Position numbers and translations under genes: made by a program. Of a stretch of DNA of 64,000 nucleotides, positions 2,263-63,569 are shown in pieces. The notes under the pieces were generated by a model that had not been told where the DNA came from, did no database searches, and saw nothing but the letters and a program-made list of their open reading frames with translations. Origin of the DNA: Scilla litardierei (taxonomy: Eukaryota > Streptophyta > Magnoliopsida > Asparagales > Asparagaceae); NCBI GenBank assembly GCA_030789695.1, contig CM061141.1, positions 280,681,871 to 280,745,870 of the forward strand, given 5' to 3'. How positions within the stretch are numbered: position 1 is the stretch's first letter; each line of letters starts with the position of its first letter.

Positions 2263-3981
2263 TGTAATGCCCTGATAGCTACTGCACAAGTACTAGAGGG
2301 GGGGTGAATAGTACTTTAAAATAATTAAGAAGATAATTCCTAATTATCTTGTAAACTCAACCAACAATGCGGAAATGAAAATGTGACAACAATAAAATGC
2401 AATCGTAAATAAACGATATAATGGGTTCGGATCCACCCAAGTCTCCCCGACTTGTTCCCGGTTATCCTACGTCCCAAACACCCAGATCCCCTCCGGCTAC
2501 TTGAGTTAGAAACCTCTAACTCAAATTTGCACTATGAAATTCTTGTAGAAAACCTCTACATGATCAAATCATACACAAATGAAAATGTGACTCCTACAAA
2601 CCAGGATCACACACAACTCTCACAACCGAGAGTAAAACTTGCAATATTCAAAGTAAATGAAATACGAAATGCTTACCAACAAAATCCTATGCCTTGAGTA
2701 AACTTACGATTTTAGGGCAAGGAGGATTTTGGAGGAGAAGAAAGGCACCAAACCCTAGCTCCAAGAAGTTGACCAGCAATGGAAGCCTAGGGAGGAGTTG
2801 GTGACCTTGAATCAAGCTCTTGGCTTGAATGGCTCAAAATCAATAAATCTCTCTTTAGGAATAAGAGTGAGGAGAGATTCTTGTGAGAAATGAATGAGCT
2901 TTGAATGAGAATTAAAATGCTCTCTCTTGATCTCTAAACTTCAATAAATATCAGCCTTGAATGCTATGAAACAGCAACTCAAGATTATAAAGGATAGAGA
3001 AGAGAGAGAGAGAAAATTCGTGCATTTAATGCTCCAACGGATCTATTTCTGAAGCAGTCTAATCGGTCAAAGAAGGATCACTGACCGACTAGATTCACAA
3101 CTAGTCGGTCGGTGATTCAACATGGACCGACTAACAGCTTCACAGCCAATAAAGATAGTTCAGGGAATATAGAACTAGTCGGTCTAAGAAGACTTGCCAA
3201 CCGACTAGTTTGACAACTAGTCGGTCGGTGAGTGTTCTTTGACCGACTAAGAGTTGAAAAAGTATAGGCTGAATTCAGGGAGCACTAGTCGGTCTAAGAA
3301 CAAATTCCAACCGACTAGTTTCTCAACTAGTCGGTCGACGGATGTTCTTTGACCGACTAATGATAAACAGTAGCTCAGGCTGAGAAACTGAATACACAAC
3401 TAGTCGGTCTAAGAAGGATTCCAAACCGACTAGTTTGACAACTAGTCGGTCGGTGAACCTTCTTGGACCGACTAACTGTAAACACTGAATGAGCTGAATT
3501 AGAGTAGGATATCTAGTCGGTTCAAGAAGGATTGCCGACCGAATAGATTGCCATCTAGTCGGTTGGTTCTTCTTCTTGAACCAACTAAGATGCACTAGAA
3601 GCCGCGAAATGAAGCGCGAAGCTTCGGAAAAGTTTCTATGGGCTTCTAATAAGATCCTAGCTCTAAGATATGAGCGTTATGAAGATTAAAACGTAAGACC
3701 TACTCAAGGCTTAACATTCTACGAAACGAAGTAGAAGACTATAAATAAAACTTGACGAACCGTCTTCAAAAGCTTCGATCGAATCTTCTTGACTTCAATA
3801 ATGGTCCTTGAGCTTCAATGAAGCTTCAAGCACACGATCACGTGGTTTGAGAAGTCTTGAGACGTCGCTTTTGATGTACATAGAATATTGGCGACGATCT
3901 CCATAACTGCGCTCACAAAGAGTTAGTTCACGATATTTATGTTTGTTCATCATCAAAACCTAATCCGGGGAATCAATACCA
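2263..3981 (-). repeat. 5' LTR of the SIRE-type copia (1719 bp)
   Basis: On the minus strand the LTR starts TGGTATTGATTCCCC and ends GGGCATTACA. Its first 50 bases resemble the start of the second SIRE-like LTR in this window (35918 downwards), including TTTTGATGATGA, which supports the boundary. A TATA-like TTTATAAT lies at 2991-2984. Upstream of that is the palindromic array at 3060-3589. The last 50 bases before the primer site have the poly-C-containing end common in SIRE LTRs. Confidence 0.8.
3060..3589. repeat. Tandem palindromic array, TAGTCGGTC/GACCGACTA, 5 units
   Basis: There are five units of about 110-116 bp. Each holds two imperfect hairpins built from TAGTCGGTC and its complement GACCGACTA: a first hairpin with about a 14-base loop, a short linker (TTTGACAA-like), then a second hairpin with a GGTGAACNTTCTT-like loop. 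A spacer of about 35 bp containing a TAAACAGTAACTC-like string separates the units. The array ends about 70 bp upstream of the TATA-like box. A homologous array is present at 62770-63300 in a gypsy LTR. Confidence 0.9.
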
Positions 3982-4606
3982 AATCCGAGTGACAGACCCA
4001 ATAAAAAACAGAGAATCTGAGCAAATTGGGGGTCTGTCGCTCTGTCTGACTCGGGTGAGTGGTCTTCCTTACTCGGCCGAGTGATCTTTCTTGCTAAGCC
4101 GAGTAGGTCTTCTCAAATTTCCAGTCAGTCGGCTGCTTTTTTGGAGAAAATCCCTGTCAGACTCAGGCGAGTGGGCTTCTCTATTCGGCTGAGTGAACTT
4201 TCTTGCTCGGCCGAGTGAACTTTGAAAATCGACAGTCTGTATCCGTTTCACTCGGTCGAACGTTACTCGGCCGAGTGAACTATCTTTTCGGCTGAGTGAG
4301 CTGCTTCTGGGCTCTTTTCTTCTCATCCTCGCCTCCTCGTCGATCCTATCGAATTTCTTCCTCTTTTGCTCATCCTCCAACGCTGCTAACTCCTCAATAA
4401 AGCCGTGGACGGCGCTCTGGTGTGCGTGACTGTCCCTTGATCTCATTTTCGCTCCAGATCGCTCCATATCTCCTGAAATACGACAAAAACAAGAAATAGT
4501 GAAAAGCAACGCAATATCGTCGAATAATCGTGAAAAACTCAATATGGGCGATAGAAATGTCATGAAAACATGCAGAAAAAAGGTGTAAAATAGGGAGCGA
4601 TCAACT
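3982..4606 (-). repeat. Athila-like gypsy LTR fragment
   Basis: This stretch aligns with the distal part of the LTR at 44773-46692. Both share the ACTCGGCCGAGTG words and a block around ATATCGTCGAATAAT, and both begin on the minus strand with TGATNGCTC then TATTTTACAC. The minus-strand start is therefore placed at 4606. The left part is cut by the copia insertion at 3981. The two copies differ visibly, so this is a related element and not the other LTR of the same insertion. Confidence 0.65.
4049..4300. repeat. ACTCGGCCGAGTG palindrome cluster in the Athila-like LTR
   Basis: About eight perfect or near-perfect copies of the 13-bp palindrome ACTCGGCCGAGTG, with variants such as CTCGGGTGAG and TTCGGCTGAG, lie in close-set groups separated by 10-20 bp of pyrimidine-rich spacer. 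The same word and grouping recur at 46034-46393. Confidence 0.8.
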
Positions 4607-6051
4607 GTCACCGTCCTTGTGGGATCCGACATCTTTTATACTATAATTTGACACAGTCCGCTTGCGGATAGAGCCCGGAATTGACACCTAGGTGCCATAC
4701 TATGCCTGGCGACCGTGACACCGCTTGGTGGAATCTAGGTGTAGGTTACGGGTGCGTCAGTGCTACACAATCTTTACAAGACATTCAATGCATGAAATGA
4801 CATGGAATATGCAATAATATGAGAGCAGATATTGAATTGCGTACCGTTATATCAAATTAAACGTGACTTGTGATATGCATGAAATGACATGGCAAGGGTG
4901 TCGGATCTAGCTTCGTTGTCAAGCTAGATCAAGTATGGTGTCGGATCTAGCTTTGTTGTCAAGCTCGATCTGGTATGGGCGTCTAGGGAACTATCATTTC
5001 ACCGCCTAGTCTCTTTTACACAATTTCAAAAAATAGCCTAAACATGGCTTACAACATCAATCTGAGCAAGTTTTACTTGCCTGAAATGACGTGCTTCAAG
5101 TCAAATGATCAAAGAGTCCAGATCTTCATATGTGCTCAATCACCAATCACCAATCACTAACCTACAGTCTCTTATTATTATATTCAATTAGTGTGTTAAC
5201 AAAAGCAATGAATATTACGTATTTTAATCTTATTTAAACATACGGTGTTTGGGTTTCCTACGGATCGAGATATACCGCAACACGACGTGAGAGCTACACT
5301 GACGTCGAGTAGAGACTTTCAGGGGTTGGACTCCGGCAACGAGCAAGGGTACAGCAGACAGCTAGCGACCACGGTAGCACGACGCACGAACAGTGGCGAG
5401 CAACACGAATGGCGGCGGGAAAGGAAAGGCCGTGCAAGGGTCTTGCGGCCTAGGGGACAGCCGTGTGGATCTGGGCTGCCGTCGAGGGGGGTTCGTGGCA
5501 ACGGCGCAGCGAGCAAGGGAGGCGTACGGCCTGGCCGTGGGTGAAGGAGAAACAAACGGAAGTTTGTGTGGGGGGAAAGGGGTTTTGTGCGACAGTTTGT
5601 GGGCTGCTGCGTAGGTTGTCACGGCCGGGGTTAGCCGACAAAGGAAGCCAGCGGTCAAGGGGGGTGGTGCGACAGGTGTTTGAGAGGAGATGGTCGTGAG
5701 GTTTAGGGGGGTGATCAGTAGTATTTGGAAGTGGAGATGGGGTTTTGTGGCTGTTTTGAGGGTGGAGGAGGTGGTTGCGCGGCTGGGGGACATGGCCGGA
5801 TGAAGGGGGAAGATGCGCAGGAGATGGCCGACGGGATGCTGGTAGCCGGCAGCGGCAATGGGATGGGCGTGGGTTTTTGAGAGGGGGTGGTTGACAATTA
5901 TAATGGGGAAGAGGGGATGGGTTTATGCGTTTTAGAGGAGGAGGAGAAGGTGTTTGGCATGGAGGAGAGCAGAAGGAGCAACTGATGGCAAGGCTCTGGA
6001 GGAGGAGGAAGATGGCCGTGAGTTGGGTTCAAGTGGCGGCTACGTGTGTGA
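4607..6051 (-). repeat. Tekay-type gypsy LTR, left segment
   Basis: This matches the long LTRs at 17792-20568 and 61029-63569 along much of its length. It has the twin GATCTAGCTT hairpins (4904-4970), the CGTCTAG...CTATCATTTCACCGCCTAGTC block, and the ACACGACG...GAGAGCTACACTGACGTCG block near 5280. The first 100-150 bp are hard to align, so the left boundary is approximate. The segment stops at 6051, where a copia-type element is inserted, and resumes at 15020. Confidence 0.75.
4904..4970. repeat. Twin hairpins GATCTAGCTT-loop-AAGCTAGATC
   Basis: Two 27-bp hairpins sit 13 bp apart. Each has a 10-bp stem and the 7-base loop CGTTGTC or TGTTGTC; the second has one stem mismatch. The pair recurs in the other Tekay-type LTRs at 18798-18864 and 26387-26453, and a single copy is at 62152-62178. 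Confidence 0.9.
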
Positions 6052-7369: not shown

Positions 7370-7560
7370 CGGGCGCAGCCTGCTGGCTGCAGCGGGCGGG
7401 CGCCCGCTGTTACAGCGGGCACGTCCCGCTGCATGCGGGCGCGGCCCGCTGCCAGCGCCCGCTGCTTGAAGCGGGCGCACGTCCGCTGCCTAGCAGGCAT
7501 GCGACCCGCCCTTGTCTCCTTGGGCGGGCACGCCCGCTAAGCTTAGCGGGCGTGCCCGTA
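7370..7560. repeat. GC-rich inverted-repeat block (GCGGGC/GCCCGC)
   Basis: Repeated GCGGGC and GCCCGC words form overlapping palindromes, ending with a GCGGGCACGCCCGC-type pair around AAGCTTAGC. The equivalent block in the 3' LTR (about 13885-14010) is roughly 70 bp shorter, so the array has changed length since insertion. Confidence 0.8.

Positions 7561-7983: not shown

Positions 7984-7986
<3 letters not shown>

Positions 7987-8079
<93 letters not shown>
7987..8079 (+). repeat. CT dinucleotide microsatellite, 93 bp
   Basis: An uninterrupted CT run. The counterpart in the 3' LTR is 83 bp (14435-14517). Both lie at the same LTR position, just downstream of the TATA box, so the run was present when the element inserted and has since changed length. 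Confidence 0.98.
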
Positions 8080-12580: not shown

Positions 12581-14431
12581 TGTAGGAGGATATGTGCCCA
12601 TAAGGCAATTTATCCTAAGTGTACGTCTTGTTCATACTGTATATGGTACGTATTATTCTAAATATGAAATCGTTCGTATTAATATACTTAGATAATATCC
12701 ATAGACTTATAGTTAGGTCCTTACGCATTTAGATGAGATCTCGATTATGTGTTAGTAAGCGACGAATAAAAACGTAAGTCTTAAACGGTTCGTGGTCATA
12801 GATGTGTCGAGAACTGGATATCGACACATCGGATAGACCGCTGTGTCTTAGTCTTACCTTAGGGTCATGATGATCTCATATTCATTCGACTTGGTGAAGT
12901 CGGAGACGAGACACAGGTGCTCATTGGAGAATGAGTTCACTGAACGACCAAATTAGAGTTATTAAATGGTTAACTTTAACTAAACTGTCTTTAATAACTC
13001 TAGGGTGATGATAGGTTAACTGGTCCTTATAACCTGAAGTCATTTGTACGAACCTGTGAGCGAACCGTGTAGCTTGGACCTATGATCTAGCTTCGAGGCT
13101 AGGCCTGCTGAAAGATCTTAGGTTGAGTTGCACCCGAAGCTCTCGAGGTGAGTAGATGACTAAGACGGGATTCGTCACTTCCGTTAAAGGGAAGTTAGTG
13201 TTACAGGCTCAGTACGGTCTTTATGTTAAACCTCGGCCGGGGTACGTTGTAGGAAGTACAACGTGTATACAACAAAGACCGCCGTATACTGACCAATGTT
13301 GTCTAATAGGGTTGACAGTAAATCATACCCTAGGCCAACAGGAACACAGTCTTGACGAAGGGACTATAGCTAACGGCATTCATCACTGACACAGCCAATG
13401 TAGACCCAATGATGCTTTTGTCAAGTGGTCGATCACGTTATGATGATTCTGAAATAGGGATGACAGTTGTTGCTCGTAGTGACCGTCATCTAGGGGTTTC
13501 GAGCCCCAACCTGTAGTAAGGACAGGCTGTAGGGTCTCACACCAAGTGGTGTTCGTGTCTTAGTAATAGGAAGATAAATTGAGAAAGAGAATCATTTGAT
13601 GATATTGAATAGTTAGTTTTCACAAAGCTTGTTGTGAAAATTAGTCGCAATAACAATAGGGACAAATGTTGCATTTGATGCAAGCTATGATTAAACGTGT
13701 CGTAAATTGTTTACGACAAATTTAGTAGGAACATATATATTGGAAAGGGTTACCTTGCTGACGGGATCGTCCCGGTCTAAACACAGGTTCAAACCACGTC
13801 TAAATCGGAACTCAAACGAGCCCGGAAATGCGAAAACAGTCCAAGGCGAAGTGGGTTAGACCCACTGGGCTAACAAGCCCATAGACAAAGGCAAACGGGC
13901 GCAGCCCACTGGCTGCAAGCGGGCGGGCGCCCGCTGCCCAGCGTGCGTGCGGCCCGCCCTTGTCTCCTTGGGCGGGCGCGCCCGCTAAGCTTAGCAGGCA
14001 TGCCCGTAACTTAAGTCATTTAGGGTTTTTTGAAACCCCAAAATGACGGCTACGAATTTCGATAATTTGCCCAACTTTGAGCAATTGTTTGAGGGGTCAA
14101 ACGAAGTCGAAATTCGTCGCCGTCGGTTCCTACGCGTTCACCATTCGAAGACCTTCAAATTGATAGCTCGTTTGGTGTCTAAAATTTAATGATCGGAGAG
14201 AATTAATTAGTTAAAGTTTGCTTTTGATAAAAGCTCACTAAACTTTAAATTAAGCTAAATTAGCTTATTTGAATTTTCTCCAAATTAGCAATAGTCCCAC
14301 ATTGCTCGCAACGAAAGAGTGAGTGCCAACTCCCTATATAAATAGGGGTGCACTCTCTTCGTTGAAACACACACCAAGTCCTCGATCGAGTAGCTCCAGA
14401 CTTTTAGAGCAAGCTCGATCGGTGACTAAAC

Positions 14432-14520
<89 letters not shown>

Positions 14521-18797: not shown

Positions 18798-18864
18798 GAT
18801 CTAGCTTCGTTGTCAAGCTAGATCAATTTAGGTGACGGATCTAGTTTCGTTGTCAAACTAGATC
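18798..18864. repeat. Twin LTR hairpins (GATCTAGCTT stem)
   Basis: Hairpins at 18798-18824 and 18838-18864 have the loop CGTTGTC. The second has TTT/AAA in place of CTT/AAG at the stem top, a compensated change that keeps pairing. The pair in the 5' LTR is at 26387-26453, where the first stem has lost pairing. Confidence 0.9.
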
Positions 18865-19469
18865 AAGTAGGCGTCTAGCCAGCTATCATTTCACTGACTA
18901 GTCTCTTTTACGCTAAAAATAAGGAAGTGGCCTAAAAACATCTCCCTACACAAGAGTTGGCAAGTTTCACTTGGCTGCTAGTATCACATCTGAGCAACAC
19001 CGTCCAACGAGTCCAAAATCACAATAATCCTACGTGCACAAGTCCACCGGCCTACATCCGTTTTATTAATCTTGATTAGTGAATTCTAAAACATTTAAAA
19101 TACTTTAAAAACGTTTATTTTAGTCTTGCTTAGCATGCATTGGGTTGGGTCCTAGGGGTGCAAAGCGTTACCTCAACACGACGCGAAAGCTACACTGGCG
19201 TCGGGTAGTGACGCCAGGGGTTGGAATAAAAGATCGCGCGCCAAGTCCAGATTCCAATTAGATTCCTCGCTGGAAAGTTCAGAGCAATCAACCGGAGCAA
19301 CGATTCCAGATTCCAAAGCTAGCACGTGCGACGACGGCCTACGACGTGTCGTAACGTCGTACGTGGCGAATCCTTGAAGAGAAAGCACCTAGGTGGGGCC
19401 CACAGTAGTCCTAGGGTCCTAGGGACCAATAGGGGACCCACAATACCTCTGGAGAACTTGGGGGCCCAT

Positions 19470-20609: not shown

Positions 20610-21514
20610 TCAAGCACTGCTCGGGAAAAGGTGTGAGAAGCGCTCTCTCATCTCATCCTCACGTTCCCAGGTGGACTCACCAGGGGAACCGTGACGCCAC
20701 TACACTCGAACCAAGTCGACGGTCTTATTCCTCAGCTGCTTCTGTCGACGATCCAGAATCTCAACTGGCTGCTGATCGTAAGACAGATCCAGACGAACCG
20801 TAATCTCCGAGAAATCCATAGCATGGGATGGATCACTAACGTATCGACGTAACTGAGATACGTGAAATACGTCGTGAACTCCCACTAGCGTTGGCGGCAA
20901 TGCCAAGCGATAAGCCACAGCTCTAACTCTCTCCAGGACATCAAACGGCCCAATGTACCCCAGACTCGGCTTGCCTCTCTTCCTGAAACGAATACGTCCG
21001 CTGTTCGGAGAAATCTTCAGAAAGACATGATCGCCAGGCTGAAACTCCAAAGGCCTCGGTTTAGCATCGGCCCAATGCTTGAAACGGTCCTGCGCAATCT
21101 TCAGTTTCTCCCGGATGTTTCTCACAACATCCACGGCCTCCACAATCATCTCCGGTCCTAAGAGCTCTCGATCTCCAATGTCATCCCAGCTCAGTGGCGA
21201 TCGACATTTCTTTCCATATAGCGCGGCGAAAGGCGCCATTCCAATACTCGCCTGGTAGCTGTATTGTAGGCAAACTCAACGTGATTGAGATGATCCTCCC
21301 AAGATCCCTTGAAGTCCAACATGCATGCTCTCAGCATGTCCTCCAAAATCTGAATCGTCCTCTCGGACTGGCCATCCGTCTGCGGGTGGTACGCCGTGCT
21401 GAAACTCAGACTCGTACCCAAGCTCTTCTGCAGACTCTGCCAAAACTGAGATGTGAATCTCGTGTCTCTATCCGACACGATACTCACGGGGACTCCGTGA
21501 AGTCGTACGATCTC
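20610..21514 (-). pseudogene. pol: Tekay-type pol, last exon: integrase C-terminal half and chromodomain-like tail
   Basis: After the acceptor at 21515 the frame reads [15 protein letters not shown], with the second integrase Asp, then [11 protein letters not shown], with the catalytic Glu. A one-base deletion near 21265 shifts the frame. The reading resumes as [19 protein letters not shown] and continues through the GPFDVLERV segment to a chromodomain-like tail (YDQQPVEILDRRQ). A TAG at about 20695 interrupts the tail where the element at 63616-64000 has Met. The frame then reads WRHGSPGESTWE to a natural TGA at 20610. Chromodomains can steer chromovirus insertion to marked chromatin. Confidence 0.85.
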
Positions 21515-21585
21515 CTGCACGATTCACGTTACATCACTACCTAAACTAGGAAAAGGAAATAGAAACGGAGTGTAAAAGAATTTAC
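21515..21585 (-). other. Putative spliceosomal intron 2 in gag-pol (71 bp)
   Basis: The minus strand begins GTAAATTC and ends GTGCAG. Read through, the frame stops at 21541. Removing 21515-21585 joins codons of YME directly to EIVRLHG in phase 0, giving the uninterrupted integrase core seen in related elements. The segment is pyrimidine-rich near its 3' end. No transcript evidence is available here. Confidence 0.6.
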
Positions 21586-24005: not shown

Positions 24006-24120
24006 CTATCAAACATTCTAACAATCAAACCCTATTCTAACAAACAATCGTATGCAAGAAATCAAACATAATCTATCAACTAAATCTAACTAAGAAGGAA
24101 ACAACTAGTCAGAGGGTTAC
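24006..24120 (-). other. Putative spliceosomal intron 1 between gag and protease (115 bp)
   Basis: The minus strand begins GTAACCCTC and ends TTTGATAG, AT-rich throughout. Upstream the frame reads EAVDEVIT plus the first base of a Gly codon; downstream starts with its last two bases then VILVCTF. Removal restores one continuous frame in phase 1 up to the protease LFDSGAS. Left in place, the gag frame stops within it. Confidence 0.55.
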
Positions 24121-28415: not shown

Positions 28416-30179
28416 TGTTGGATACAGTGGATGGCAAACAACACTAGAAGGGGGGTTGAATAGTGTTGTATAAAGATAAAACTTTTTCGTTCTTAATAAA
28501 TCAACACAAAACAAAGCCTTCTAATGTTGCCTAAGAAACCAAGTAGAGTGATCTACGCTTGGTTCTTAATCAAATCAATAACTCTTCAAATCAAATCAGA
28601 GATAAAAGTCTTCTGGTAGCCGGCTCCCTATGAACAGTAGTCGACTCCTAGAGGAAAATTAAGCACCGCACAGATAGTTAAATAATTAATGGAGATATAT
28701 AAAATTTACACAGAAGTGTAAACACAAAACTGAACTTTGCAGTATATTATAAAAGAGTTACAAGAATGTTAAGCAAAGAATAATTACAAGTTAAATAAGA
28801 AATGCATGCAAAGATAAACAGTCACAGATAAGCAAACGCAGACACAAGAATTTTTATCCTGGTTCCCCACAACTTGGGTACGTCCAGTCCCCGACTAATC
28901 CGGTACGAGATTTCCACTATCTGTCTTGGCAAATACAAGTACCTAACTTCACTTGTTAGGATTTCCAACAACCTAGCCTTAACCATGATTTCCAACTGCA
29001 ACACCTAGACTTGTCTAGGGTTTCCAACAACAACACCCTTACAACAAAGAGTAACCACAATTTAAAATCGATATCCAATTCACCACAATAGATTGGTGGA
29101 GATTGGATTTACACCCAAATTCTATAGCCAATAGTAATAGACAATTACGTGTACAGTAGCTTGATAGAATAAGATTCTCGATCACACAAAGATACGAATG
29201 AAATCTTTGTGATCTAGATCAAATGTTGTTCAAAAAATCCTTTAAATAAAAAAATTTTAGAATAAATAATATGGATTTTGAAAAACAGATAGCCAAATAA
29301 AATTATGATCTTCAGAAAATAATATCAAAAGAAATTGCAAGATCAAGAGTAAAAACAGATTTGGCTAAGAGAGAATGAAAGTTGAGAATTTGAGAGCGTT
29401 TTGCACAAAAGAATTTGATTTCATTAGTTGTTGTGATTTCTCAATGAAAATGGTCCTCTATTTATAGGAGAAATCTGAGAATTTGAATTTCAAATTCATT
29501 TGACTTTTGTCCCGAAAATCATTGGAAAAATCAATTAAAGAGATGTCAAAAAATCAAGTCAAAACGTCAAACTTCGATAGCTGGTAGTCGACTCCCTAGG
29601 AGTGGTAGTCGACTCCCAGTGTGTTTCAGGAGAAATTGATTATCAGCTGGTAGTTGACTCCCTACCTTTGGTAGTCGACTCCCAGAGGAGTTTCTTCTGA
29701 ACCACTAGTATTCAATCAAGTAGTTAACTCCAGGGTATAGTGGAGTTTTACTACGGAAATATAAAACGACTAGAAAAAGCTCTCAATATCCTTTTTGAAA
29801 ATGATTTAAAAGATATGTAAATGTTTTTGAAATCATTTGTGTGTGTGTGATTGTCTATACGATTGGCTTTAACATAACCCTAAGAAAGACACAACACACT
29901 CACTATAGACTAAGACACGTCTTCGGAAGCTTGATCAACTGATGGAGTAGATGTGAGCTTTCACTTGAGCTTCTTGTTCTATTTGAGCTTTGAGCTTCAT
30001 CATTGATCTTAGCAACGTTCGTCCTTGTCTTTGGGCGTAGATTGCACTTCTTGGAGTATGCATAAAGCTTTTCATTTGTCACACAACCTGCACACTTAGT
30101 CGTAGTGTAGTTAGTACACTAAGCTTCATTTGGTGTGCTCATCATCAAAATCACTTGGGGTGGAATTCAATTTCCATCA
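28416..30179 (-). repeat. 3' LTR of the SIRE-like element (1764 bp)
   Basis: Minus-strand ends are TGATGGAAATTG and CATCCACTGTATCCAACA. It is the same length as the LTR at 34155-35918 and differs by few substitutions, so the insertion is fairly young. The TATA box TATAAATA is at 29466-29459 and the palindromic array at 29581-29746 lies upstream of it. A further pair of the same motif is at 28613-28654. Confidence 0.92.
29581..29746. repeat. GGTAGTCGACTCCC palindrome array in the SIRE-like LTR
   Basis: Paired copies of GGTAGTCGACTCCC, with the palindromic core GAGTCGACTC or TAGTCGACTA-like, are spaced about 25 bp and separated by short variable linkers; the last pair is degraded. Equivalent arrays lie at 35320-35486 and 37472-37637. 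Each starts about 115 bp upstream of the TATA box. Confidence 0.85.
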
Positions 30180-34128: not shown

Positions 34129-34138
34129 ATTTATAGCC

Positions 34139-34152: not shown

Positions 34153-34154
34153 AG

Positions 34155-35918: not shown

Positions 35919-36876
35919 CTCTCCCCCTTTTGATGATGACACCCAAATGAAAAATGAAGTAAGTTGGAATATGAAAATACACTTACTCCACCTTCTTTGA
36001 TGCGGTTCTCCCCTTGCATCGAAGCCGTTAGCAAAACAATACATTCATACATTCATTTTTGCATTTCATATTTTTCTCCCCTTATCATCAACAAAAATTA
36101 ATGATATATAATAACAACACATGAATCATGACAAGATTTTTGGAGGGGAATTCAATTACTATTCCTGCAAAAAAATGTTAGCATATGATCAACCAATGTT
36201 TTAGCAAAAATAGATAAGTTCATCATAGGCATAGTAATAAAGGAGTAGCAAGCATCACACGATAATAGAGTTATTACAGACCATAAGTTTTGAAATCATT
36301 GTTAAAAAACCATTGTCTGAAAGATCAAGGATGACCGCCGTTCTTCTTCAATTCCTTGATCTCATCAAGGATCATGACAAGAGTATCCTCCATCATTTTG
36401 TTGCTCTTTGCCACGAATTCCTTGAGATCGTCCACCTTTTTTTTGAGGTCTTTAAAACCTCTCTCTTGGGATATCTTTAACTTCCCAATTTTCTTCAAGA
36501 GCATCTCTTGAAGTTCAATGATGTATGTCGGTGGCTCCTCGTCTTCTCCTTCTTCTTTGCTTCTTTTTTCTTATTCTCCTTCTTCTTCCTCATTAGAATC
36601 TGAAACAACAATTTTCTTACCTCTCCTGGAGGATGACGATCCTCCTTCAGCAGCAAGTTTTTTTTCGGGGATGTTTTGATCAAGGTCTTTGTGAGGTTCA
36701 TTCTCCCGAGAGCATGGACATCAAATATGCGTGCCGGTTCCAGAATTGTGGTTTCATTATCCAAAGGCACATTATAACTAATAAACAAGATTGTGAGGTA
36801 ATGTCCATGCGCTAGCGTGGATGAGGGTCTGTCTGAAGAAGCAGAAGCAAGAATGGAGTCCATAATGACTTTGCAA
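35919..36876 (-). pseudogene. Second, truncated copy of the env-like region
   Basis: A close copy of 30180-31140: purine tract, untranslated tail and the C-terminal third of the env-like ORF, with small indels that break the frame (for example near 36570 and 36690). It ends abruptly near 36877, where LTR sequence begins, which marks a deletion junction. Confidence 0.8.
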
Positions 36877-36887
36877 GAATGGTAATG

Positions 36888-39344: not shown

Positions 39345-39346
39345 AT

Positions 39347-43700: not shown

Positions 43701-44010
43701 TCTTAAGGACGACATGAATTGGGCTAACCCATCTGCTGTCAGAAATAGGATAGATGATATCGGCTTCAAGCAGTCTAAGGATCTCTTTTTTAACCACGTC
43801 CTTCATGTTGGGGTTTAACCGCTTTTGAGGCTCTATGGAGATGGCTTTAGTGTTTTCAAGATGGATCATACGTATACATAGCCTACGACTAATCCCCTTA
43901 AGGTCGAAAATTCTATAGCCAAGGACATCCATATGGCTTCTCAGGACATTTAGAAGACTCTCAAGTTGATGGTGGTTGAGGCTAGCATTAACAATCACAG
44001 GATAGGTCAA
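40800..44010 (-). pseudogene. pol: Athila-like pol (reverse transcriptase, RNase H, integrase), frameshifted
   Basis: Reverse transcriptase spans 44010-42880: VSPIHVVLKKGG, MCIDYIKLNKADRKDHYPL, LDGYSGFFQI, MPFGLCHAPATFQRC, then after a frame break near 43340 the catalytic MEVFMDDFS and VLGHLVSSRGIEVDK. RNase H follows ([34 protein letters not shown]), with a TAA near 42879. Integrase has the zinc-binding [10 protein letters not shown]...CDRCQ pattern, [15 protein letters not shown] (first Asp) and LISDGGSHF (second Asp); a stop near 41811 and a shift precede [16 protein letters not shown]. The tail (MRQFKVGDKVLLYNSRLRLF) ends in Lys-rich sequence. Four or more breaks make it nonfunctional. 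Confidence 0.88.
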
Positions 44011-44098
44011 TTTATCACCTAAAAATGCATATCTTAAGTTAAGAGGTAATTGTTTTAGTTCTACCTCAGGGGGGTGCTATACCCCCTGTTTCCTTCTC

Positions 44099-44772: not shown

Positions 44773-46692
44773 TTGGTCGCTCTCCGGATACACATCCGGA
44801 GAAGGATGTAGCTTTACCGCAAATGCACGGTTTATTGGCAAGCGGGTATCGAATCATAGGGAGGACTAATGATGGTACTCTACGTTAATTACTAAGCTAC
44901 TTGGTGGAAAATTGTCTAGGAATGGTTGGTGTCACAATTGTTCGAGTACGAATAAAATTCAATATAATAAAGATGTCTAGGGCTAGGAAATCCCCACTAT
45001 GGATTTTCAAGCATCAATGTAAGTTATGAATTACCATGCAATTAAACTTGGTTTTAAGGTGAACTTGTCACAACTACATCGAGAACCGACACACGCTGTC
45101 GTGCTATGCAAGTCTATAGCAATCTAAACTAGAGCCTCGATGTCACGCAAGCCTAGTCCAGACCACTAGCATTAAGATTGGCAATTATGTCCAATCCCAA
45201 CTCAAGCTCGATGTCGTGCAATTTGAGTTTGGATTTAGATCGTGATAGTTCATACTCGTTCACCGTCGTGCAACGAATATGAGTATATGAGAACAATAAA
45301 AATGCCAGCTTTGGTCGCTGCCATGCACCAAGTCTAGGAAATTTCGAGTGTAATCCGAAATCGAATAACTAGGGCTTTCCTTGGATCAACATCCTCTGTC
45401 GAGCTCTCAAGATCCAAGAGAAATCCTTATCTATCCATAGTAAATTAATCAAGACCTAGCCTCTCTAACAAGCCTAATATCATAGCAATTCATAGATCTC
45501 ATAAACCATACATTAGACCCATAGGGTTCATCCTTTGCCATAAATTAAAGAAACTACTCACAAATCATATTAGAAATCAATAGGAAAGCAAGATCAACAA
45601 TAGAATTCATATCAAAACTCCGATCTAGCAGGAGATATAGGATAAAAATTAAAGCTTTTAAGAGATAAAGACAAACCAATGTTGCAAAGAAACATCAAAT
45701 AGAAAATTAAGATCAAAAATAGAATTCATATCAGAACTCAGATCTAGCAAGAGATATAGCATAAAAATTAAAGCTGTCAAGAGATCAAGACAAACCAATG
45801 TTGCGAAGAAACTTCAAATAGAAAATTAAGAACAAGTCTTCAATCCCTCGCCAATATAAAAGATTAACTAAAATTAAAACTACAGAAAAATTATTCTAAG
45901 AAGTCTCTTTGGTCTCTCTGGTCTGGAGACAAAACTGGGCTTAAATACATGCCCGAAAAGACCCAAAAAAATCCAGACCAAACTGCCCCTGTGCAGCCAG
46001 AAACCCTAGTTTTCAAGACTGGCTGTTGGCGCTACTCGGCCGAGTGAGAATCTCACTCGGTCGAGTGCCAAATCTGCAGAACTAACAGAGATATTCGTGT
46101 TCAGGCATGCAAGCCACTCTGGCGAGTAGGATTTCTCACTCAGTCGAGTGAGAAGCCTACTTGGTCGAGTAGGACAGTCTACAGGTCCCTCCAATAACAG
46201 AGAAGTCACCTTGGATTTCTTTAGAATATTTGCCTCCACTCGGGCGAGTGGAGTTCTTACTCGGCCGAGTGGAAGTTATCACTCGGCCGAATACATTTAG
46301 GCACTCAGGCTGGAACTGATCTTTGTATCAGCGTTATTCAGCCGAGTAAGCTGCTTCACTCGGGCGAGTGGCTTCTCCACTCGGTCGAGTGGCCTGTTTC
46401 TGAACTCTTTTTTTTCCTCCTTGCTTCCTCGTCTATTCTTTCGACTTTCTTCTTCTTCCACTCATCCTCCAGTGCCGTTAGCTCTCCGATATGATCATGA
46501 TGCTTCGGCACGCGTGTAAAGACTCTAGGCTCCAAATTGCTCTCAATTGCTCCATATCTCTTGAAATCGGACGAAAACCAAGAAATAGTGAAAAGCATTG
46601 AAATATCGTCGAATAATTGTGAAAAACGCGATATGAGCAATCTAAATGACATGCAAATATGTAGAAATAATGTGTAAAATATGAGCCTATCA
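44773..46692 (-). repeat. 5' LTR of the Athila-like element (1920 bp)
   Basis: Minus-strand ends TGATAGGCTCATATT and GAGAGCGACCA. A TATA-like TATTTAA is at 45947-45941, with the ACTCGGCCGAGTG array upstream (46034-46393). The 45000-45900 stretch has repeated TCGTGCAA/GTCATGCAA-type words and AT-rich sequence. It shares its distal 600 bp with 3982-4606. Confidence 0.8.
46034..46393. repeat. ACTCGGCCGAGTG palindrome array, about 11 copies
   Basis: Perfect and near copies of the palindrome (central CC, TC or GC variants) occur in groups of two or three with about 10-bp spacers, and the groups are 60-100 bp apart. It starts about 87 bp upstream of the TATA-like box on the minus strand. The same word marks the LTR fragment at 3982-4606. 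Confidence 0.88.
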
Positions 46693-54204: not shown

Positions 54205-57200
54205 CTATGTTTTAGGTTTAAGTCTCATTCCCCTCGATGTACTTTCCACTAACTTCCTATTTAGTGGTTTTGTCAGAGGATCTGCCAAATTCATCTCTGA
54301 CCTCACTTAATCAAGGGATACTATCCCATGATCTAGCAGCTGCCTCACAATAGAGTGCCTTAGGCGTATATGCCTACTCTTCCCATTAAAAACTTTATTT
54401 TTGGCTTTTGCAATTGCAGCTTGGCTATCACAATGGATAGACACAGACGGTACCGGTTTTTCACAAATGGGAAGATCACCAAGAAGGTTCTTAAGCCACT
54501 CGGCTTCACTACATGCCTTCTCTAAGGCAATAAACTCGGATTCCATAGTAGACCGAGCAATACATGTTTGCTTGGAAGATTTCCAAGACACAGCACCTCC
54601 ACCAAGTGTAAAAACATAACCACTTGTGGATTTAAGCTCATCTGAATCAGAGATCCAGTTTGCGTCAGTAAAACCTTCTAAAACTGATGGATCGCCACTA
54701 AAACATAATCCATATTCAAGAGTTCCTTTCAAGTATCTCATAACTCTTGACAATGCATTCCAATGATCACTATTAGGATTTTGAGTGTAACGACTCAATC
54801 TACTAATAGCATAAGCAATATCAGGGCGAGTACAATTCATTAAATACATTAAGCTACCAATGATTTGAGCATATTTAATTTGTGAAACAGATTCACCAAA
54901 ATTTTTAGCTAAATGTAAACTAGCATCATATGGAGTAGCTACAGGTTTTTGATCATGATATCCAAACTTTTCAAGCATTTTAATAACATAATGTCCTTGA
55001 GAAAGCATAATACCACTAGGTGTCTTAGTTAACTTAATACCTAAGATCACATCAGCTTCACCCATGTCTTTCATATCAAACTTAGAGGACAAGAATGACT
55101 TAGTTGCATTTACTACGTCTAGGTTGGTGCCGAGAATAAGCATGTCATCAACATATAAGAAAATAATAACACCAACACCATTATCAAACTTTGTGTAAAT
55201 ACATTTATCAGCATCATTTATATGATAACCATTTGAAAGCAAAACAGAATCAAATTTATCATGCCATTGTTTTGGAGCTTGTTTTAAACCATAAAGAGAT
55301 TTAACAAGTTTGCATACTTTATGTTCATTTCCAGGAGTGATACAACCTTCAGGTTGTTCCATATAAATCTCTTCTTCCAAATCTCCATTCAAAAAAGCAG
55401 TCTTTACATCCATTTGATGGATAACAAGACTATGTATAGATGCTAGAGCAACCAGAACACGAATAGAAGCTATCCTAGTGACCGGAGCAAAGGTATCAAA
55501 ATAATCAATGTCTTTCTTTTGGTTGAAGCCTTTAGCAACTAATCTAGCTTTGAACTTGTCAATAGAACCATCAGGTTTAAGCTTCCTTTTAAATATCCAC
55601 TTGCAACCAATAGTTTTAGCTCCTGGGGCAAGGTAACAAGTTCCCAAGTGTGATTTGATATAATAGATTCTAATTCACTGTTGATTGCTTCTTTCCAAAA
55701 AGTGGCATCAGGAGATGTGATGGCTTCATGGTATGTAAGAGGGTCATCATCAATAAGAAAGGTAAAAAAGCCATCACCTAGATTAGTCTCCCTCCTAACT
55801 CTTTTACTCCTTCTTACTTCTATCTCATCATCATTATCATGTGAATGAACATCAGAAGTGTGAGATGATTGTGGTGCAGAAGTCATCCTACCATTATCCA
55901 TTTTCATTGGAAATATGTGCTCAAAGAAATCAGCATTCTTGGTTTCAACAATTGTGTTAGGCTCCATAATGTTTTGCTCACTTTTAACAACAAGGAATCT
56001 ATAAGAAGCACTATTTTGAGCATATCCAATAAACATGCAATCAAAGGTTTTAGGACCTAACTTTCTTTTCTTAGGTTCAGGTAAAAGAACTTTAGCTAAG
56101 CACCCCCACACTTTGAGGTAACTAAGGTTTGGAGAATGACCTACCCAAAGTTCATAAGGAGTCTTACCTAATTTCTTATAGGGAATTCTATTCTGAATGT
56201 GACAAGCAGAGAGAATAGCTTCTCCCCAAAGGTTAAGAGGTGCACCTGAACTAATTAGCAAAGCATTCATCATTTCTTTTAAAGTCCTATTTTTCCTCTC
56301 TGCTATGCCATTTGATTCAGGTGAATATGGAGGAGTAGTCTCATGAATAATCCCATGTTCTTCACAATACTCATTAAAAGTTGTAAACTCCCCTCCTCTA
56401 TCTGATCTAACCCTTTTTATTTTCTTATTAAGTTGATTCTCTACTTTAGTCTTATACTTCAAAAACATATCAAAAGCTTCATCTTTAGATCTAAGCAAGT
56501 ATACTTCAGTGTATCTAGAGAAGTCATCCACAAAAGTGATATAGAATTTCTTACCACCTCTAGTTATATGGCTTTTCAAATCCCCAAGGTCACTATGAAT
56601 TAAAGCAAGAAGTTCACTTTCTCTGTGTACAGACCTACATGTTTTCTTAGTGGCTTTTGATTCAACACAAATTTCACATTTATCATTAGAGGAAGATGAA
56701 GCATTCAACAATCCAATTTCTTTCATTTTCTTAATATATGAATAATTAACATGCCCTAATCTATAGTGCCAGATATCAAAAGAGTCAATCAAGTAAGCAG
56801 AAGAAGATGATGCATTAGTATTCATGACATCAAGCACATTCAGAATGAAAAGACCCTGGTTACAATATCCCTTTCCCACAAACTGACCATTATTGGTCAT
56901 TACAATTTTATCAGACTCAAAAGTAACCTTAACCCCCACTTTTCCCAGAAGAGAGACAGAAACCAGATTCCAACGGATATCTGGGGCATGGAGCACTTCA
57001 CTAAGCGAAAGGGTTTTTCCTGAGGTTAATTTGAGAAGAACCTTCCCTTTCCCGATTACGGGTGAGGGTCTTGAATCCCCCATGTACACATTTTCCTCGC
57101 CAGAGCTGATAGGAACATAGGAGGTAAAAGCTCCTCTATCAGCGCAGATATGCCGGGTTGCCCCGGAGTCAATTACCCAGTCCTTAGCATGTGCCACCAT

Positions 57201-58082
57201 GTTAACCTCTGAGATCACCGCATCAATTATATCTCCTTCTACCAAGTTTGCACTTGGTTTAGGAGTATCTTTCCGGAAGCGACATTGAGCTGCATGGTGT
57301 CCAGGTTTCTTGCAAATAAAACAGTCCCCTTTCTTCTTGAAAGTAGTATGGTTTTGGCCCTTTTGAAATCTCTGAGTTGGTTTGTGGTTGGGTCTAAATT
57401 TCTTGAAAGGTTTCTTAGGATGAGAAGGAGGAAAGGAAGAATTAGCTTCAATAAGATTGGCTTTAGAAACAATTTCTTTAGCAGAATTGGCTTTTTCTCT
57501 TTCCCTATTCTTTTCTTCAATCCTAATATGGATGATAACATCTTCAAGGGACATTTGCTTTCGTTTGTGTTTAAGGCTATTTTTATAATCTTTCCAAGAT
57601 TCAGGAAGTTTTTCAATAAGAGAGCCAGAAACAAATGGTTCAGGGAGAGTTATATTTTCATTTTTAAGATCATCAATAAGGACATGGAAATCATGGATTT
57701 GGGTGGAAACAGATTTGTCTTCAGTCATGGCAAAGTGAAGGAAATTGCCTACAGCAAATTTTTGGGTACCAGCATCTTCTAGGATGTATTTTTTGGTTAG
57801 GCTAGTCCAAATTTCTGAAGCAATTTTAGTAGGACAGTACACATCAAATAATTCATTAGAGAGAGTATGAAGAATAGTATGGCGACAAATTTTGTTGGCA
57901 CGGTCCCAGGCAGGAAGGTCTTTTTCATCTGTTGGTTTAGGATCTGTGAGTGCGAAGGCAAAGCCAGTGACATCAAGTGTACTAAAGACTTTTTCTTGCC
58001 AACGTTTAAAGAAAGAACCAGAAAAAAGTTCGATTTTAGACAGATCAGGCAGATGTTTGGCAGTCACAATAGCAGCATCCAT
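54205..58082 (-). pseudogene. gag-pol: Copia gag-pol polyprotein with one frameshift and one late stop
   Basis: The ATG at 58082 begins MDAAIVTAKHLPDLSK. In order: gag core (IWTSLTKKYILEDAGTQKF), zinc knuckle CFICKKPGHHAAQC near residue 255, protease WVIDSGATRHI near 305, integrase zinc finger (HYRLGHVNY...CEICVESK), catalytic FVDDFSRYTE and SDRGGEFTTF, then reverse transcriptase with [10 protein letters not shown] and RNase H with [10 protein letters not shown] and ADPLTK. A C is missing from the run at 55625-55628, shifting the frame in the segment before [16 protein letters not shown] at 54309-54307 precedes the last 34 codons. Otherwise the catalytic residues are kept. Confidence 0.93.
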
Positions 58083-58097
58083 ATCTACTCTTAAGAT

Positions 58098-59008
58098 TGT
58101 TGAATAAAAATGAAGATATAAGAAGGATGGTGCTATTAAACAGAAAGAGAAAGGAGGGACTTATTGATTTGCCGAGGCGTGCTAGGCACTTTCCTTAAGA
58201 GTAGATTTCCACCCCTCAGAGTTTGAACTCGGTGCAAGGCAGGTCAAGCGGCTACCCTCCAGGATTCAACGGCAACGGCCTTGTAAGTGTGCACTCACAA
58301 TACAAGGCTCCAGCGAGCAGCAACAGTTCTTCGATCTCGAACGAAGTGGAGGAAGAGCAAGGGGGACGCAGCAGGCCGCAGGAACAAGGAACTGCTGAAG
58401 GAGAAGATCGGCTCGGGTCTGTGGAGGCCGAGATGAACAGAACAAGGCAGCGGCGAATTTTGTTGAGGAAGAATTGAGTTTTTCGCAATGTGTCAAAACC
58501 CTTGACAGACTAGGGTTTATATAGGTGAAGGCAAATGACTGTTGGGATTACAGTCATTAAAGTCAAAAAATAGTCGTTACAGAATTAAAACAGCTATTAA
58601 ATAGAATATAGCTGTTGAGACAATTAATCAGCGTCATTAAAAAGAATATGGCTGTTGGGAATTTAATGGGCCTTTCAAATTCTGCAAAAAAACAAGTGGG
58701 CCAAAAAAAGATGCAAAACTCGGTCACTCCGCGCGCGCACCCATGAACCCCCCCCTGCACAGGCGCGACGCCAGCGCACACACGCTAAGGTTTTCCAGAT
58801 CCGACGCCCACAAATTCCATTCGGTTCAACCCGGTTTGGGCTCGGCCCCATGCTTGGCCTCATGCGCACGCGAGCTACCCCCAAGTCCTAGCCCATTAAC
58901 AAGTCCAATAGCCCATTAAAAAGATGACTATGATATACCCATTCAAAGATTGTCTCACATCCGATGTGGGACTATCTTTATCTTTTTGAAATGGAGAAAT
59001 ATCCAACA
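58098..59008 (-). repeat. 5' LTR of the copia element (911 bp)
   Basis: Closely similar to 52676-53602, differing by few substitutions and by the C run. TATA box at 58523-58516. The sequence just inside on the minus strand, ATCTTAAGAGTAGAT, precedes the gag ATG. Confidence 0.95.
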
Positions 59009-61028: not shown

Positions 61029-63569
61029 TGTCACGCCCCGCTTCCCTAAAATGGAGGCGGGACGTGAAAAGGTCCGCACGAGAGTAGAGCTGTGAAGCCT
61101 CAAACCCGATAAGCGTCAATAAAACATAAGCAGGTCCCTGTAACCACAACGGAACAACAATAATAACATAAGGAGGGACTGAAATAAAATCTCATATCTC
61201 ACAAATTGTCCAACATGAAAATAAGTTCGACATCCAGAAAAGCCACCAGGCTAAAAGAAAGAGTCTAAAGGCCCAGAACAAGGCCAACAAAAGCAACAAC
61301 GAAACAAAGTATAGGTGCTACGCACCGACAACAAAACAGCAGTCTAAACAAAAGGGAAAACACAACGGAGACACTAGGACTGGTCCCCAGTGTCCACGTA
61401 CTCCCCGTCAAACACAAGCTCGGGCTCGGCGTCAGCAAACACCTCGTCCTCAACAAGGTACTCAGGCTCAGGATCTAACATGTGTCACCCAAAAGAGTAA
61501 AGGGGCACATGTCAGCAAGTCTAAAAGACTTGGGCAAGGAAACGGAAAGTAAGGCAACTAGCAACCTAGCAGTTTTAGTATGCATGACATGGCAGTTATA
61601 ACATGAGTGCACAGGCAAGACATGGTGAACAATAAGTACAAGAGAACAATTATCGGGACAAGACAAGAGTAGCCAAGCTACTAACAATCTCAATCAATTC
61701 ACTATTCACGTTTCACTGTTGTTTGTAGATGTTTACGCCCTTCAGCTGAATGGTATAGCATTCACGCTGATTGGCCCTAAACACTACCCCACCCCAGAGT
61801 TTACGCCTTACAACTGCAGTTGCTGATCAGGCAGACCCCCAGTTGAATGACCGCTTAACTCTTACCCCATCCCACACGTAAACAAGCCAGGGTCCCTGTA
61901 CATGAGCCCAGCAAGTGAGCCAGGGTTGCCCCGCACGGGAGCTTGTTTTCCTAGTTCACAATTCAATATCGAGCGTTGGGGTTAGCAACTCATTATGCTC
62001 GCTTCTGGTCACGAGCCAGGAAACACAAGTATTGTAGCGATGCTACGCAATCACGGAATCACTTAAAGAATGCAATGACATGACAATTAATTTGCGTACC
62101 GTTAATGGAATTTAAACATGACATGGTAATTGTGCAACATGATAATTGTCGGATCTAGCTTCGTTGTCAAGCTAGTTCCTAAATTTTGCGCCTAGGCGAG
62201 TATCATTTCGTCGCCTAGCCTCTTTTACGCCTACAACAAGCAAATGGCCTAAAACATGGCCTAAACCCTAAGTGGCAAGTTTCACTTGCCTAGCACCGGG
62301 GATGACGATCACGAAGGTTCGTCTCGCGGATGCTAATCTACGGGGAAATCGCTGTTATGGGGAAACAATCATCAAAACAACATTCATTTCATTAGGGTTT
62401 CATAAAAATACAAATAGGTTATGAAAACATCAAGAGATCGATTTCTTACCGTGAGGAGGCGGAAGAAACACTCCGGAGAACCTAGGGACCAGATCTGGAA
62501 ACGAATGGAGAAGTTTGGAGAACTAGGGTTTTTGGGGGATTTTGGGGATTTGATGAGATTTTGGGGAAGATGAGGGGTAGAATGTGTTGAGGGATGGTTT
62601 GGATGATGGATCTTGGGCTTGGAATGAAGGAATAAGGGTTTGGGGAAGAAGGGGGCTCAATGGGGGAGAAACTAGGGTTTTGGGTCGAGTGGAGGAAGAA
62701 GAAAACGTTTGGGAGGGGTTTAAATAGGATGGGCTGGCGGCTGCCCAGAAATTAGGGTTTTAACACAGATTAGTCGGTCAAAGAGCAACCACTGACCGAC
62801 TAGTTTGGCAACTAGTCGGTCGGTCGACCAACGCAGACCGACTAAGTGTAAACAGTAACTTCTGAACGAAAATAGAATTTAGATTTAGTCGGTCGATGAA
62901 CAACTACTGACCGACTAGTTTGACATCTAGTCGGTCGGTGAACGTTCTTAGACCGACTAAGAGTAAACAGTAACTCGACTGTACAGAAGAACCAAGAATT
63001 AGTCGGTCTGAGTACAAAACTTAACCGACTAGTTTAACAACTAGTCGGTCGAAAGATGAACTTAGACCGACTAAGAATGAACAGTACTGATACTAAAATT
63101 TAGATGATGTGTTAGTCGGTTAAAGAAGCATTGCCGACCGACTAGTTTGCAACCTAGTCGGTCAACCAACGTTCTTAGACCGACTAACGATAAACAGTAA
63201 CTCCTGAGAAATTTAGAAAGCTAACTAGTCGGTCCAAGAAGGATTGCCGACCGACTGGATCGTCATCTAGTCGGTCGGTGCCCCTTCTTACACCGGCTAA
63301 TAAGCACCAAAAGTTCCGATACGGAGCGCGGAGCTCCGGGATCGATTCCTAAGACTCCTAGGCTTGATCTAATAGTAAGATACGACCGTTATGAAGCCCG
63401 TCATGAATGACTTACTCCGAAATCGACGATCCTAAGGAAGAAACGAGAAAACACGACGAAACGATCGAAAATGAAAGTTACGGAGACGAAAACCACACAT
63501 GAGGAGAAAATCCACCAAAACATATATTATAATATAATAAATCCAGATACATGAAAACCAGTCGTTACA
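61029..63569 (-). repeat. 3' LTR of the second Tekay-type element (2541 bp)
   Basis: Minus-strand ends TGTAACGACTGG and GGGGCGTGACA. It shares with the other Tekay-type LTRs the CACCCAAAAGAG...GGGGCACATGTCAGC block (61486-61520), a GATCTAGCTT hairpin (62152-62178) and the CGCCTAG block. A TATA-like TATTTAAA is at 62726-62719; the palindromic array 62770-63300 lies directly upstream of it. Confidence 0.92.
62770..63300. repeat. Tandem palindromic array, TAGTCGGTC/GACCGACTA, 5 units, in a gypsy LTR
   Basis: Five units of about 105-115 bp have the same two-hairpin plan as 3060-3589: TAGTCGGTC, loop, GACCGACTA, TTTGACAA-like linker, CTAGTCGGTCGGTG, loop, GACCGACTAA, then a spacer containing AAACAGTAACTC. 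The total length (531 bp) nearly equals the copia array (530 bp). About 100 bp beyond it also match (GGAGCGCGGAGCTCCGG here, GAAGCGCGAAGCTTCGG there). Confidence 0.92.

Follow-up and report, generated by a model that had tools for sequence, protein, structure and literature searches.

The long terminal repeats (LTRs) of two retrotransposons of different superfamilies, found in a 64-kb stretch of the Scilla litardierei assembly (contig CM061141.1; the whole stretch analysed is called the window), carry arrays of the same short palindromic word just upstream of their TATA boxes. One element is a Sirevirus-type Copia (SIRE1) and the other a chromovirus-type Gypsy (Tekay2). The two arrays are one homologous module of ∼625 bp that corresponds unit for unit. 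Judging from the sequence, we consider it probable (roughly 0.6) that this module was passed between the superfamilies, most likely from a Sirevirus to a Gypsy element, and that it most likely works as an enhancer. The window consists of plant DNA rich in LTR elements, mostly on the minus strand, and its source assembly comprises 3.68 Gb. Coordinates of the features are given in Table 1.

The modules align from 3684 to 3059 in SIRE1 and from 63396 to 62770 in Tekay2 (626 and 627 bp) with sharp ends, and were found to be 72.6% identical over 574 columns. When U3 regions were aligned with each other, SIRE1 and Tekay2 scored 354, whereas every other cross-family pair scored at most 27. The homology ends before the TATA box, as the stretch between array and box is unrelated in the two elements (p 0.54). 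On the other side it includes a non-repeat left flank of 96 bp, which scored 27 compared to a maximum of 15 in 1000 shuffles. In the window, the first 21 bases of this flank occur only in SIRE1 and Tekay2 when up to 3 mismatches are allowed. The flank is visible in 22 aligned rows, and its start is found in 44 of the 46 LTR arrays at a lenient 7 mismatches in 21. In register, the half-sites are 92.5% identical (185/200) and the spacers 68.3% (123/180), versus 55.7% for spacers out of register. The spacers of a given unit tend to match those of the unit at the same position in the other array (rank 2 of 120 permutations), while the words alone reach rank 36 of 120.

All 10 units of SIRE1 and Tekay2 have the arrangement F-14-R-8-F-14-R, where F and R are forward and reverse half-sites and the numbers are gaps in bp. 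In the window and the loci L009–L048 fetched from the assembly, the F-R gap is 14 bp in 461 of 467 cases and the short R-F gap 8 bp in 238 of 250; the 176 gaps between units range from 32 to 61 bp. The spacers diverge in sequence but are constant in length. A helical turn of DNA takes 10.5 bp, and half-sites on the same strand, 42 bp apart, are thus separated by four turns. Gap lengths that stay invariant although the spacers have diverged, along with the 42-bp phasing, point to binding on double-stranded DNA.

The two carriers were assigned to their groups from coding domains and LTR junctions. Pfam scans covered 20 open frames of the window, and plant retrotransposon gag/pol were the best matches in protein searches. 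The LTR of SIRE1 ends in CA and is followed by TTTGG-TATCAGAGC (primer-binding site match at 2249–2260) and by a copia gag (688–2292) with a zinc knuckle, as in Sireviruses (PF14223 and zf-CCHC, PF00098). The Sirevirus LTR junction reads CA/ATTGG/TATCAGAGC; SIRE1 and a second element of the window, termed SIRE-like (CA-CTTGG-TATCAGAGC), each deviate from it by one mismatch. At the Pfam threshold used, PF14223 alone was matched by the gag of the SIRE-like element, which is 34% identical to that of SIRE1 over 301 columns. Its polypurine tract (PPT), AGGGGGAG, has a flanking inverted repeat and adjoins the 3′ LTR at 35921 and 30185. In SIRE1 only the right arm of the PPT inverted repeat is visible, and a search of L009 did not show the 3′ LTR of this element. 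Several related SIRE copies show CCTATAWATA where SIRE1 has its weak TATA-like box.

For Tekay2, the C-terminus of pol (63619–63999) contains SH3_Tf2-1 (E 1.3e-24) and a Chromo match (PF00385; E 4.8e-5) that at 23.6 bits lies below the Pfam cut-off of 25.1. Matches to the gag, reverse transcriptase (RT) and integrase (INT) of Tekay1, a related element of the window with Gypsy-type domains, follow in this order on the L010 minus strand. This locus also contains the second LTR of Tekay2, at 6938–4397. Both LTRs carry the array, and their 99.3% identity over 2542 bp shows the insertion to be recent. The names Tekay and Athila are those of the preliminary description, and kinship among Tekay elements was measured only among the window's own copies.

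The module is present in high copy number. The 16-mer ACTAGTCGGTCGGTGA was found 30,399 + 30,428 times in the assembly, and its reversed control once. Of 3736 exact Tekay2-type TATA motifs, 3383 (90.6%) have GACCGACTA 30–60 bp upstream, and 7482 of the 8409 exact SIRE-type motifs (89.0%) have GACCGAYTA 45–75 bp upstream; reversed controls gave 0. These counts cover exact motifs of one subfamily each and score a mutated word as a miss. By its own terms, the preliminary description would have been refuted had the array been missing from most copies or scattered over the LTR. For SIRE and Tekay2 the opposite was found, as ∼90% of the exact TATA motifs counted are preceded by the word at an almost constant distance.

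We fetched 38 array sites, 34 of them in SIRE LTRs and 4 in Tekay-type Gypsy LTRs, and two extra Gypsy arrays were found beside SIRE arrays in L014 and L024. The sites match the 16-mer exactly and were drawn from the top 100 entries of the hit list, which span 0.25–4.4 Mb of contig C1. Of 20 sites planned at every fifth entry, 18 were fetched; another 20 were then taken in list order (0.26–1.78 Mb), passing over certain neighbours. The sites are not independent, as in some cases a single element contributes both of its LTRs, and a few arrays (e.g., in L016, L020, L040 and L041) were assigned to an LTR by one flank only. In the window and these loci, the last half-site lies 43–48 bp from the TATA box in 8 of 8 Gypsy arrays and 27–75 bp (median 67) in 32 of 38 SIRE arrays; boxes were called by regular expression, which matched none in the remaining 6.

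A second set of Gypsy LTRs was chosen by protein match to the Tekay2 pol end rather than by the array (50,882 first-look candidates, 150 scored). All 12 of the 3′ LTRs obtained, out of 17 planned, carry the array; they lie on 11 contigs and all belong to Tekay2's own close family. Their arrays begin ∼268 bp into the LTR and have 3–5 units, with the TATA box 44–45 bp from the last half-site in 9 of 12 and no box matched in 3. The arrays of these loci (L049–L060) vary by whole units (3, 4 or 5). Their inner gaps are 14-8-14 throughout, except for one unit of L053 that the regular expression read as 10-12-14.

In SIRE elements the word is found in two places, as described for Sireviruses (PMC2829016). 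Eight SIRE-word arrays lie outside LTRs, seven of them 387–410 bp past a copia RT match, such as that at 6382–6570 of L009 beyond the RT match below SIRE1; the eighth, in L018, had no such match. The fetched Tekay2 stretch (L010) has a single array, in the LTR, and Tekay1 has none. Thus, with LTR and linker occupied in SIRE, the LTR only in Tekay2 and neither in Tekay1, the distribution favors a transfer from Sirevirus to chromovirus-type Gypsy, which we consider the likely direction. Tekay1 and Tekay2 RT genes are 87.9% identical in DNA, and those of Tekay2 type, L015 type and Tekay1 are all 87–88% identical. A tree of the flank and first unit (44 rows; 2 of the 46 LTR arrays, L020 4460 and L040, were left out) separates 7 Gypsy from 37 SIRE rows (split 70/93; 69% of bootstrap trees), and within it the Gypsy rows of Tekay2 type stand far from those of L015 type. 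We infer that the transfer may have occurred by template switching or gene conversion in U3, after which the module would have multiplied with both families. Template switching between co-packaged RNAs has been proposed for chimeric LTRs in related elements (PMC1950507).

Other origins of the shared module were considered. A local accident, by which the Tekay2 copy gained SIRE sequence after insertion (a nested piece, gene conversion or misassembly), would fit the adjacent array-bearing SIRE and Gypsy copies in L014 and L024. It is rejected as extremely improbable, since the array is present in both Tekay2 LTRs, in 12 of 12 family members on 11 contigs and at 3383 promoters. Binding by one host protein could also have led SIRE1 and Tekay2 to evolve the word separately. 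In favor of this, CGGTC-GACCG cores are tabulated for Sirevirus words of distant plants (PMC2829016, Table 3), and further families of the window have arrays that are unrelated in sequence but similarly placed. Because the 96-bp flank outside the units is common to both elements and the unit order tends to be kept, we reject such convergence for this pair as very improbable. The preliminary description had proposed a “convergent or exchanged” element; for SIRE1 and Tekay2 the evidence speaks for the exchanged one. A third mobile element or a host sequence giving the module to both families would agree with a tree that nests neither family inside the other, with the lack of an outgroup in the viral_contigs and genome_contigs collections, and with a description of annotated Helitrons whose commonest structured motif is also the commonest maize Copia palindrome (PMC10760457). 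We find this quite improbable, as SIRE and Gypsy LTRs account for all of the 38 sampled arrays (a sample from two kinds of LTR probe and one contig stretch), the 8 arrays lacking LTR flanks are consistent with SIRE linkers, and the motif is presented as a general trait of the genus Sirevirus (PMC2829016).

The module consists of the conserved left flank and ∼3–6 units of ∼113 bp, with four half-sites each, and its end lies ∼40–75 bp ahead of the TATA box. Its most likely role would be that of an enhancer. We infer that a host protein would bind the many copies of ACCGAC, the core of the dehydration-responsive element (DRE), at fixed helical spacing, and that the bound protein would drive the promoter directly downstream of the array. 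ACCGAC is present in 17 of 20 SIRE1 and 19 of 20 Tekay2 half-sites (36/40) and in 282 of the 344 half-sites of 86 non-redundant units. It occurs 20 times in the SIRE1 array and 22 times in the Tekay2 array, versus 0.28 and 0.60 times in shuffles, and 26 times in the remaining 62.9 kb of the window. DREB2A is reported to be a protein that “preferentially binds ACCGAC motifs” (PMC4625044). The observed/expected ratio of CpG is 0.99 (SIRE1) and 1.38 (Tekay2) in the arrays, compared to 0.44 and 0.68 in the LTR parts downstream. Reading the spacers as heat-shock elements was rejected; GAANNTTC and TTCNNGAA were counted 1 and 2 times in SIRE1 and 1 and 0 times in Tekay2.

Genomic RNA contains a copy of U3 at its 3′ end, and selection could instead have favored hairpins of RNA or single strands; each unit would fold into a long hairpin, which might feed small RNAs or take part in packaging of the RNA or in strand transfer. 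Folding is indeed strong in the SIRE1 and Tekay2 arrays (z -18.0 and -16.0), as it is in the 86 non-redundant units (mean minimum free energy -41.0 kcal/mol, mean z -9.1). Swapped spacers give a poorer fold than a unit's own in 51 of the 86 units (Wilcoxon p 0.0005), the excess of spacer complementarity is 0.050 in true register compared to at most 0.014 in 12 shifts (86 units), one column pair reads GC 35 / CG 31, and arms within a unit match better than arms across units (spacers p 0.0015). The palindromes of maize Sireviruses are described as small-RNA hotspots (PMC5311732, PMC10760457). However, these p-values are too small because the rows are related, nearly half of the complementarity excess comes from one column pair, a covariation test of 10 units gave weak evidence, its score being reached in 39 of 500 shuffles, and the arm-match rank is 15 of 120 for Tekay2 alone, against 2 of 120 for SIRE1 alone. 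Constant gaps of 14 and 8 bp with diverged spacers fit DNA geometry better than an RNA loop, and folding leaves the position just before the TATA box unexplained. We consider hairpins an unlikely explanation of the array, though they may have a role alongside protein binding.

Several observations weigh against a transferred enhancer. The arm-to-arm matching of the spacers would be needed by a hairpin and not by independent half-sites on DNA. The ACCGAC half-sites were spotted post hoc and serve as a lead to DREB2A-type binding; the longer DREB1A site RCCGACNT (A/GCCGACNT) was found 0 times in the SIRE1 and Tekay2 arrays. A CpG ratio of 1.38 is also seen at the SIRE U3 start, outside the array. 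The tree is unrooted and gives neither the direction nor the number of events, and no copy of the module was seen in another species, the viral_contigs and genome_contigs searches having given no relatives and no outgroup. Finally, 8 Tekay-type LTR starts were found in the window and the fetched loci, and 3 of them (window 20576, L009 3339 and L010 7671) have no array within 1300 bp, so the array is not a trait of the whole lineage. In this survey of LTR starts, Athila words occur in L034 without any U3 start being matched there, and the matches in L041 and L043 lie too near the locus end to show an array.

The other families of the window carry arrays of their own. To compare them with chance, inverted 7-mer pairs were counted on the upstream side of the TATA-like boxes and in 200 dinucleotide shuffles. 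The excess was z 26.6 for SIRE1, 33.3 for Tekay2, 10.5 for the Athila-like element (Athila1), 6.3 for a second Athila-like LTR fragment (Athila2), and 15.5 and 5.9 for the 5′ and 3′ LTRs of a gag-only copia element (gag-copia); it was weaker in the three SIRE-like LTRs (4.5, 3.4 and 5.9). No upstream excess over shuffles was found for Tekay1 (z -0.4 and -0.1) or for the copia element at 58 kb (z 1.6). Downstream of the box an excess is also seen in SIRE-like (3.4 and 3.9) and Tekay1 (8.5 and 7.8) LTRs and, slightly, in SIRE1 (2.6) and Tekay2 (2.9). Together with word searches and RNA folding, these values bear out the arrays reported in the preliminary description, and in all five named arrays the TATA-like box lies on the downstream side in LTR orientation. 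The gag-copia block is upstream of its box as well, but ∼330 bp away. The claim that words differ by family holds for the other arrays, which are unrelated in sequence, and fails for SIRE1 and Tekay2, which share one word in one homologous module. Likewise, the common plan is seen in the named arrays but is not a general trait, given that Tekay1 and the 58-kb copia have no upstream array. Thus, an array before the TATA box is a common layout in the window, yet no rule.

Table 1. Position of the shared module, its carrier LTRs and the other palindrome arrays in the window.
Feature	Position	Strand	Remarks
SIRE1 array	3059..3588	-	5 units, 20 half-sites, each unit F-14-R-8-F-14-R; fold z -18.0
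Tekay2 array	62770..63300	-	5 units, 20 half-sites, word and gaps as in SIRE1; fold z -16.0
Left flank of module, SIRE1	3589..3684	-	Non-repeat; aligns with 63301-63396
Left flank of module, Tekay2	63301..63396	-	Non-repeat; aligns with SIRE1 flank
SIRE1 5′ LTR (Sirevirus-type Copia)	2264..3981	-	Inside Athila-like LTR; U3 edge set by eye from right-arm motif, approximate
Tekay2 3′ LTR (Gypsy, chromovirus-type)	61029..63570	-	Follows pol end with SH3_Tf2-1; starts TGTAACGAC
SIRE1 TATA-like box	2984..2991	-	Read from the sequence; weak as sequence
Tekay2 TATA box	62719..62726	-	44 bp past last half-site
Athila1 array	46034..46393	-	11 near-perfect 14-bp palindromes (CACTCGNNCGAGTG type); TATA-like box 45941-45947; fold z -8.7
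Athila2 LTR fragment	4048..4277	-	Athila word x7 at <=2 mismatches; cut by SIRE1; new relative to the preliminary description
SIRE-like Sirevirus LTR array	29581..29746	-	Word GGAGTCGACTACC; TATA 29459-29466; fold z -3.7
SIRE-like array, matching copies	35322-35421; 37474-37573		
Gag-only copia GC-rich hairpin block	7370..7560	+	TATA ∼7889; fold z -9.3

No homology to the SIRE1 module was detectable in the Athila-like, SIRE-like and gag-copia arrays, and no dyad symmetry beyond the word was found in the Athila-like and SIRE-like arrays (p 0.29 to 0.98). Being unrelated in sequence, these arrays fit a parallel origin better and look like independent inventions of a similar layout. The Athila-like element has Gypsy RT and INT domains (pol at 41814–44076). 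Its word stands behind the same U3 start in 5 copies, two in the window and one each in L011, L018 and L019; the flank of Athila2 is 72.7% identical to 46358–46681. In L018 and L019 there is no TATA-like box close behind the first array, further words lying beyond it, so that the similar array-to-TATA spacing previously described for this family fails there. Further copies of the SIRE-like word lie past the TATA box of its LTRs (28636, 34353) and in the interior of the element at 32147 and 32168 (to 32180), ahead of an open reading frame with PF20167. In the gag-copia element, 78 alignment columns of the 5′ block (7370–7560) are missing from the 3′ LTR (13895–14010), which suggests that such blocks can change length quickly, as both LTRs belong to one element.

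Further features were seen in these elements. Two insertions of a SIRE LTR are located at, or immediately next to, an Athila-like palindrome array (window 3941–4080 and L011 3952–3990), and a 119-bp tandem repeat of 2.2 copies lies at 45579–45835, downstream of the Athila1 TATA-like box. Pure TC repeats follow the gag-copia TATA at 7987–8079 (93 bp) and 14435–14517 (83 bp). The SIRE-like element (28416–38072) is a tandem LTR-internal-LTR-internal-LTR structure with a gag and no RT among the scanned frames. Several Tekay-type LTRs have a CTAGCTT-AAGCTAG hairpin segment in R-U5 (4900–5083, 18798–18976, 26383–26566 and 62147–62291; 74–85% identity). Pfam also detected Gypsy-type gag and pol pieces of Tekay1 (20703–25237) and a copia pol at 54310–58160.

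LTR families are classed by their coding domains and tend to be treated as owning their promoters. An enhancer-like module common to Copia and Gypsy lineages would mean that promoters move independently of genes, as a transferable cassette instead of a family trait, that palindrome arrays are portable, and that activation and silencing of unrelated elements can be coupled. Tentatively, and with some doubt, we suggest that a Sirevirus-born cassette may have entered Gypsy chromoviruses and may set thousands of LTR promoters in two superfamilies, with one DREB2-type stress factor and silencing target in common. The copy counts and fixed geometry make the module directly testable.

Repeated motif (RM) boxes have been described before in Sirevirus LTRs, as palindromes of the upper LTR half that almost always have a CGG-CCG core and are soon followed by a TATA box (Bousios et al., 2010; PMC2829016), with more boxes in the linker of env-bearing elements and none in the classic Copia elements compared there (PMC2829016). 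The SIRE1 and Tekay2 arrays resemble these RM boxes as CpG-rich CGG-CCG palindromes in many copies, in the upper LTR ahead of a TATA box and, in SIRE elements, with copies in the linker (PMC2829016). The word given for a Vitis Sirevirus, CGGTCGACCG, is nearly the core of ours (PMC2829016). The boxes are called Sirevirus-specific in that account, whereas here the module is also present in Gypsy LTRs, and the 14-8-14 unit and the common flank are features not met in its description of the boxes (PMC2829016). SIRE1 itself has 20 half-sites with a CGGTC/GACCG core, a TATA-like box after them and an array in the linker.

Bousios et al. reportedly treated the palindromes of maize Sirevirus LTRs and small RNAs in 2016. 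Like the maize palindromes, our arrays lie in the LTR cis-region and fold strongly, the maize case being one of Copia elements (PMC5311732, PMC10760457). Maize Gypsy elements are described as having no clear hairpin peak, while annotated Helitrons carry the Copia palindrome as their top motif, a printed hint that palindromes spread beyond Copia (PMC10760457). Sites for DREB proteins have been reported in plant LTR elements too. Maize transposable elements tied to stress response carry DREB/CBF sites resembling the DRE/C-repeat (CRT) (PMC4287451), and a machine-learning study associated a DREB1D site with plant LTRs (PMC11656987). As described, these studies scored the presence of A/GCCGACNT or a matrix, whereas here ∼20 ordered ACCGAC half-sites occur per LTR without A/GCCGACNT (PMC4287451, PMC11656987). 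In the literature on LTR palindromes, superfamily exchange and DREB sites, of which our coverage was partial, we found no mention of Gypsy LTRs with a Sirevirus-type array, although we do not claim its absence from print, and no Copia-Gypsy exchange of an LTR block other than QuinCent. QuinCent, a segment with a cryptic inverted repeat in the einkorn Gypsy element RLG_Quinta, is likewise situated ahead of the TATA region, within the 5′ half of the LTR (PMC11302176). It has a homologue in the LTR of the Copia element RLC_Gisela, for which gene conversion was proposed (PMC11302176). It is ∼162 bp long, is described without a word array and was proposed to place nucleosomes, whereas the SIRE1/Tekay2 module is ∼625 bp long, multi-unit and of Sirevirus type (PMC11302176). 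Thus, the Sirevirus array as such is already known, and for an LTR block that moved between the Copia and Gypsy superfamilies there is one close precedent, QuinCent.

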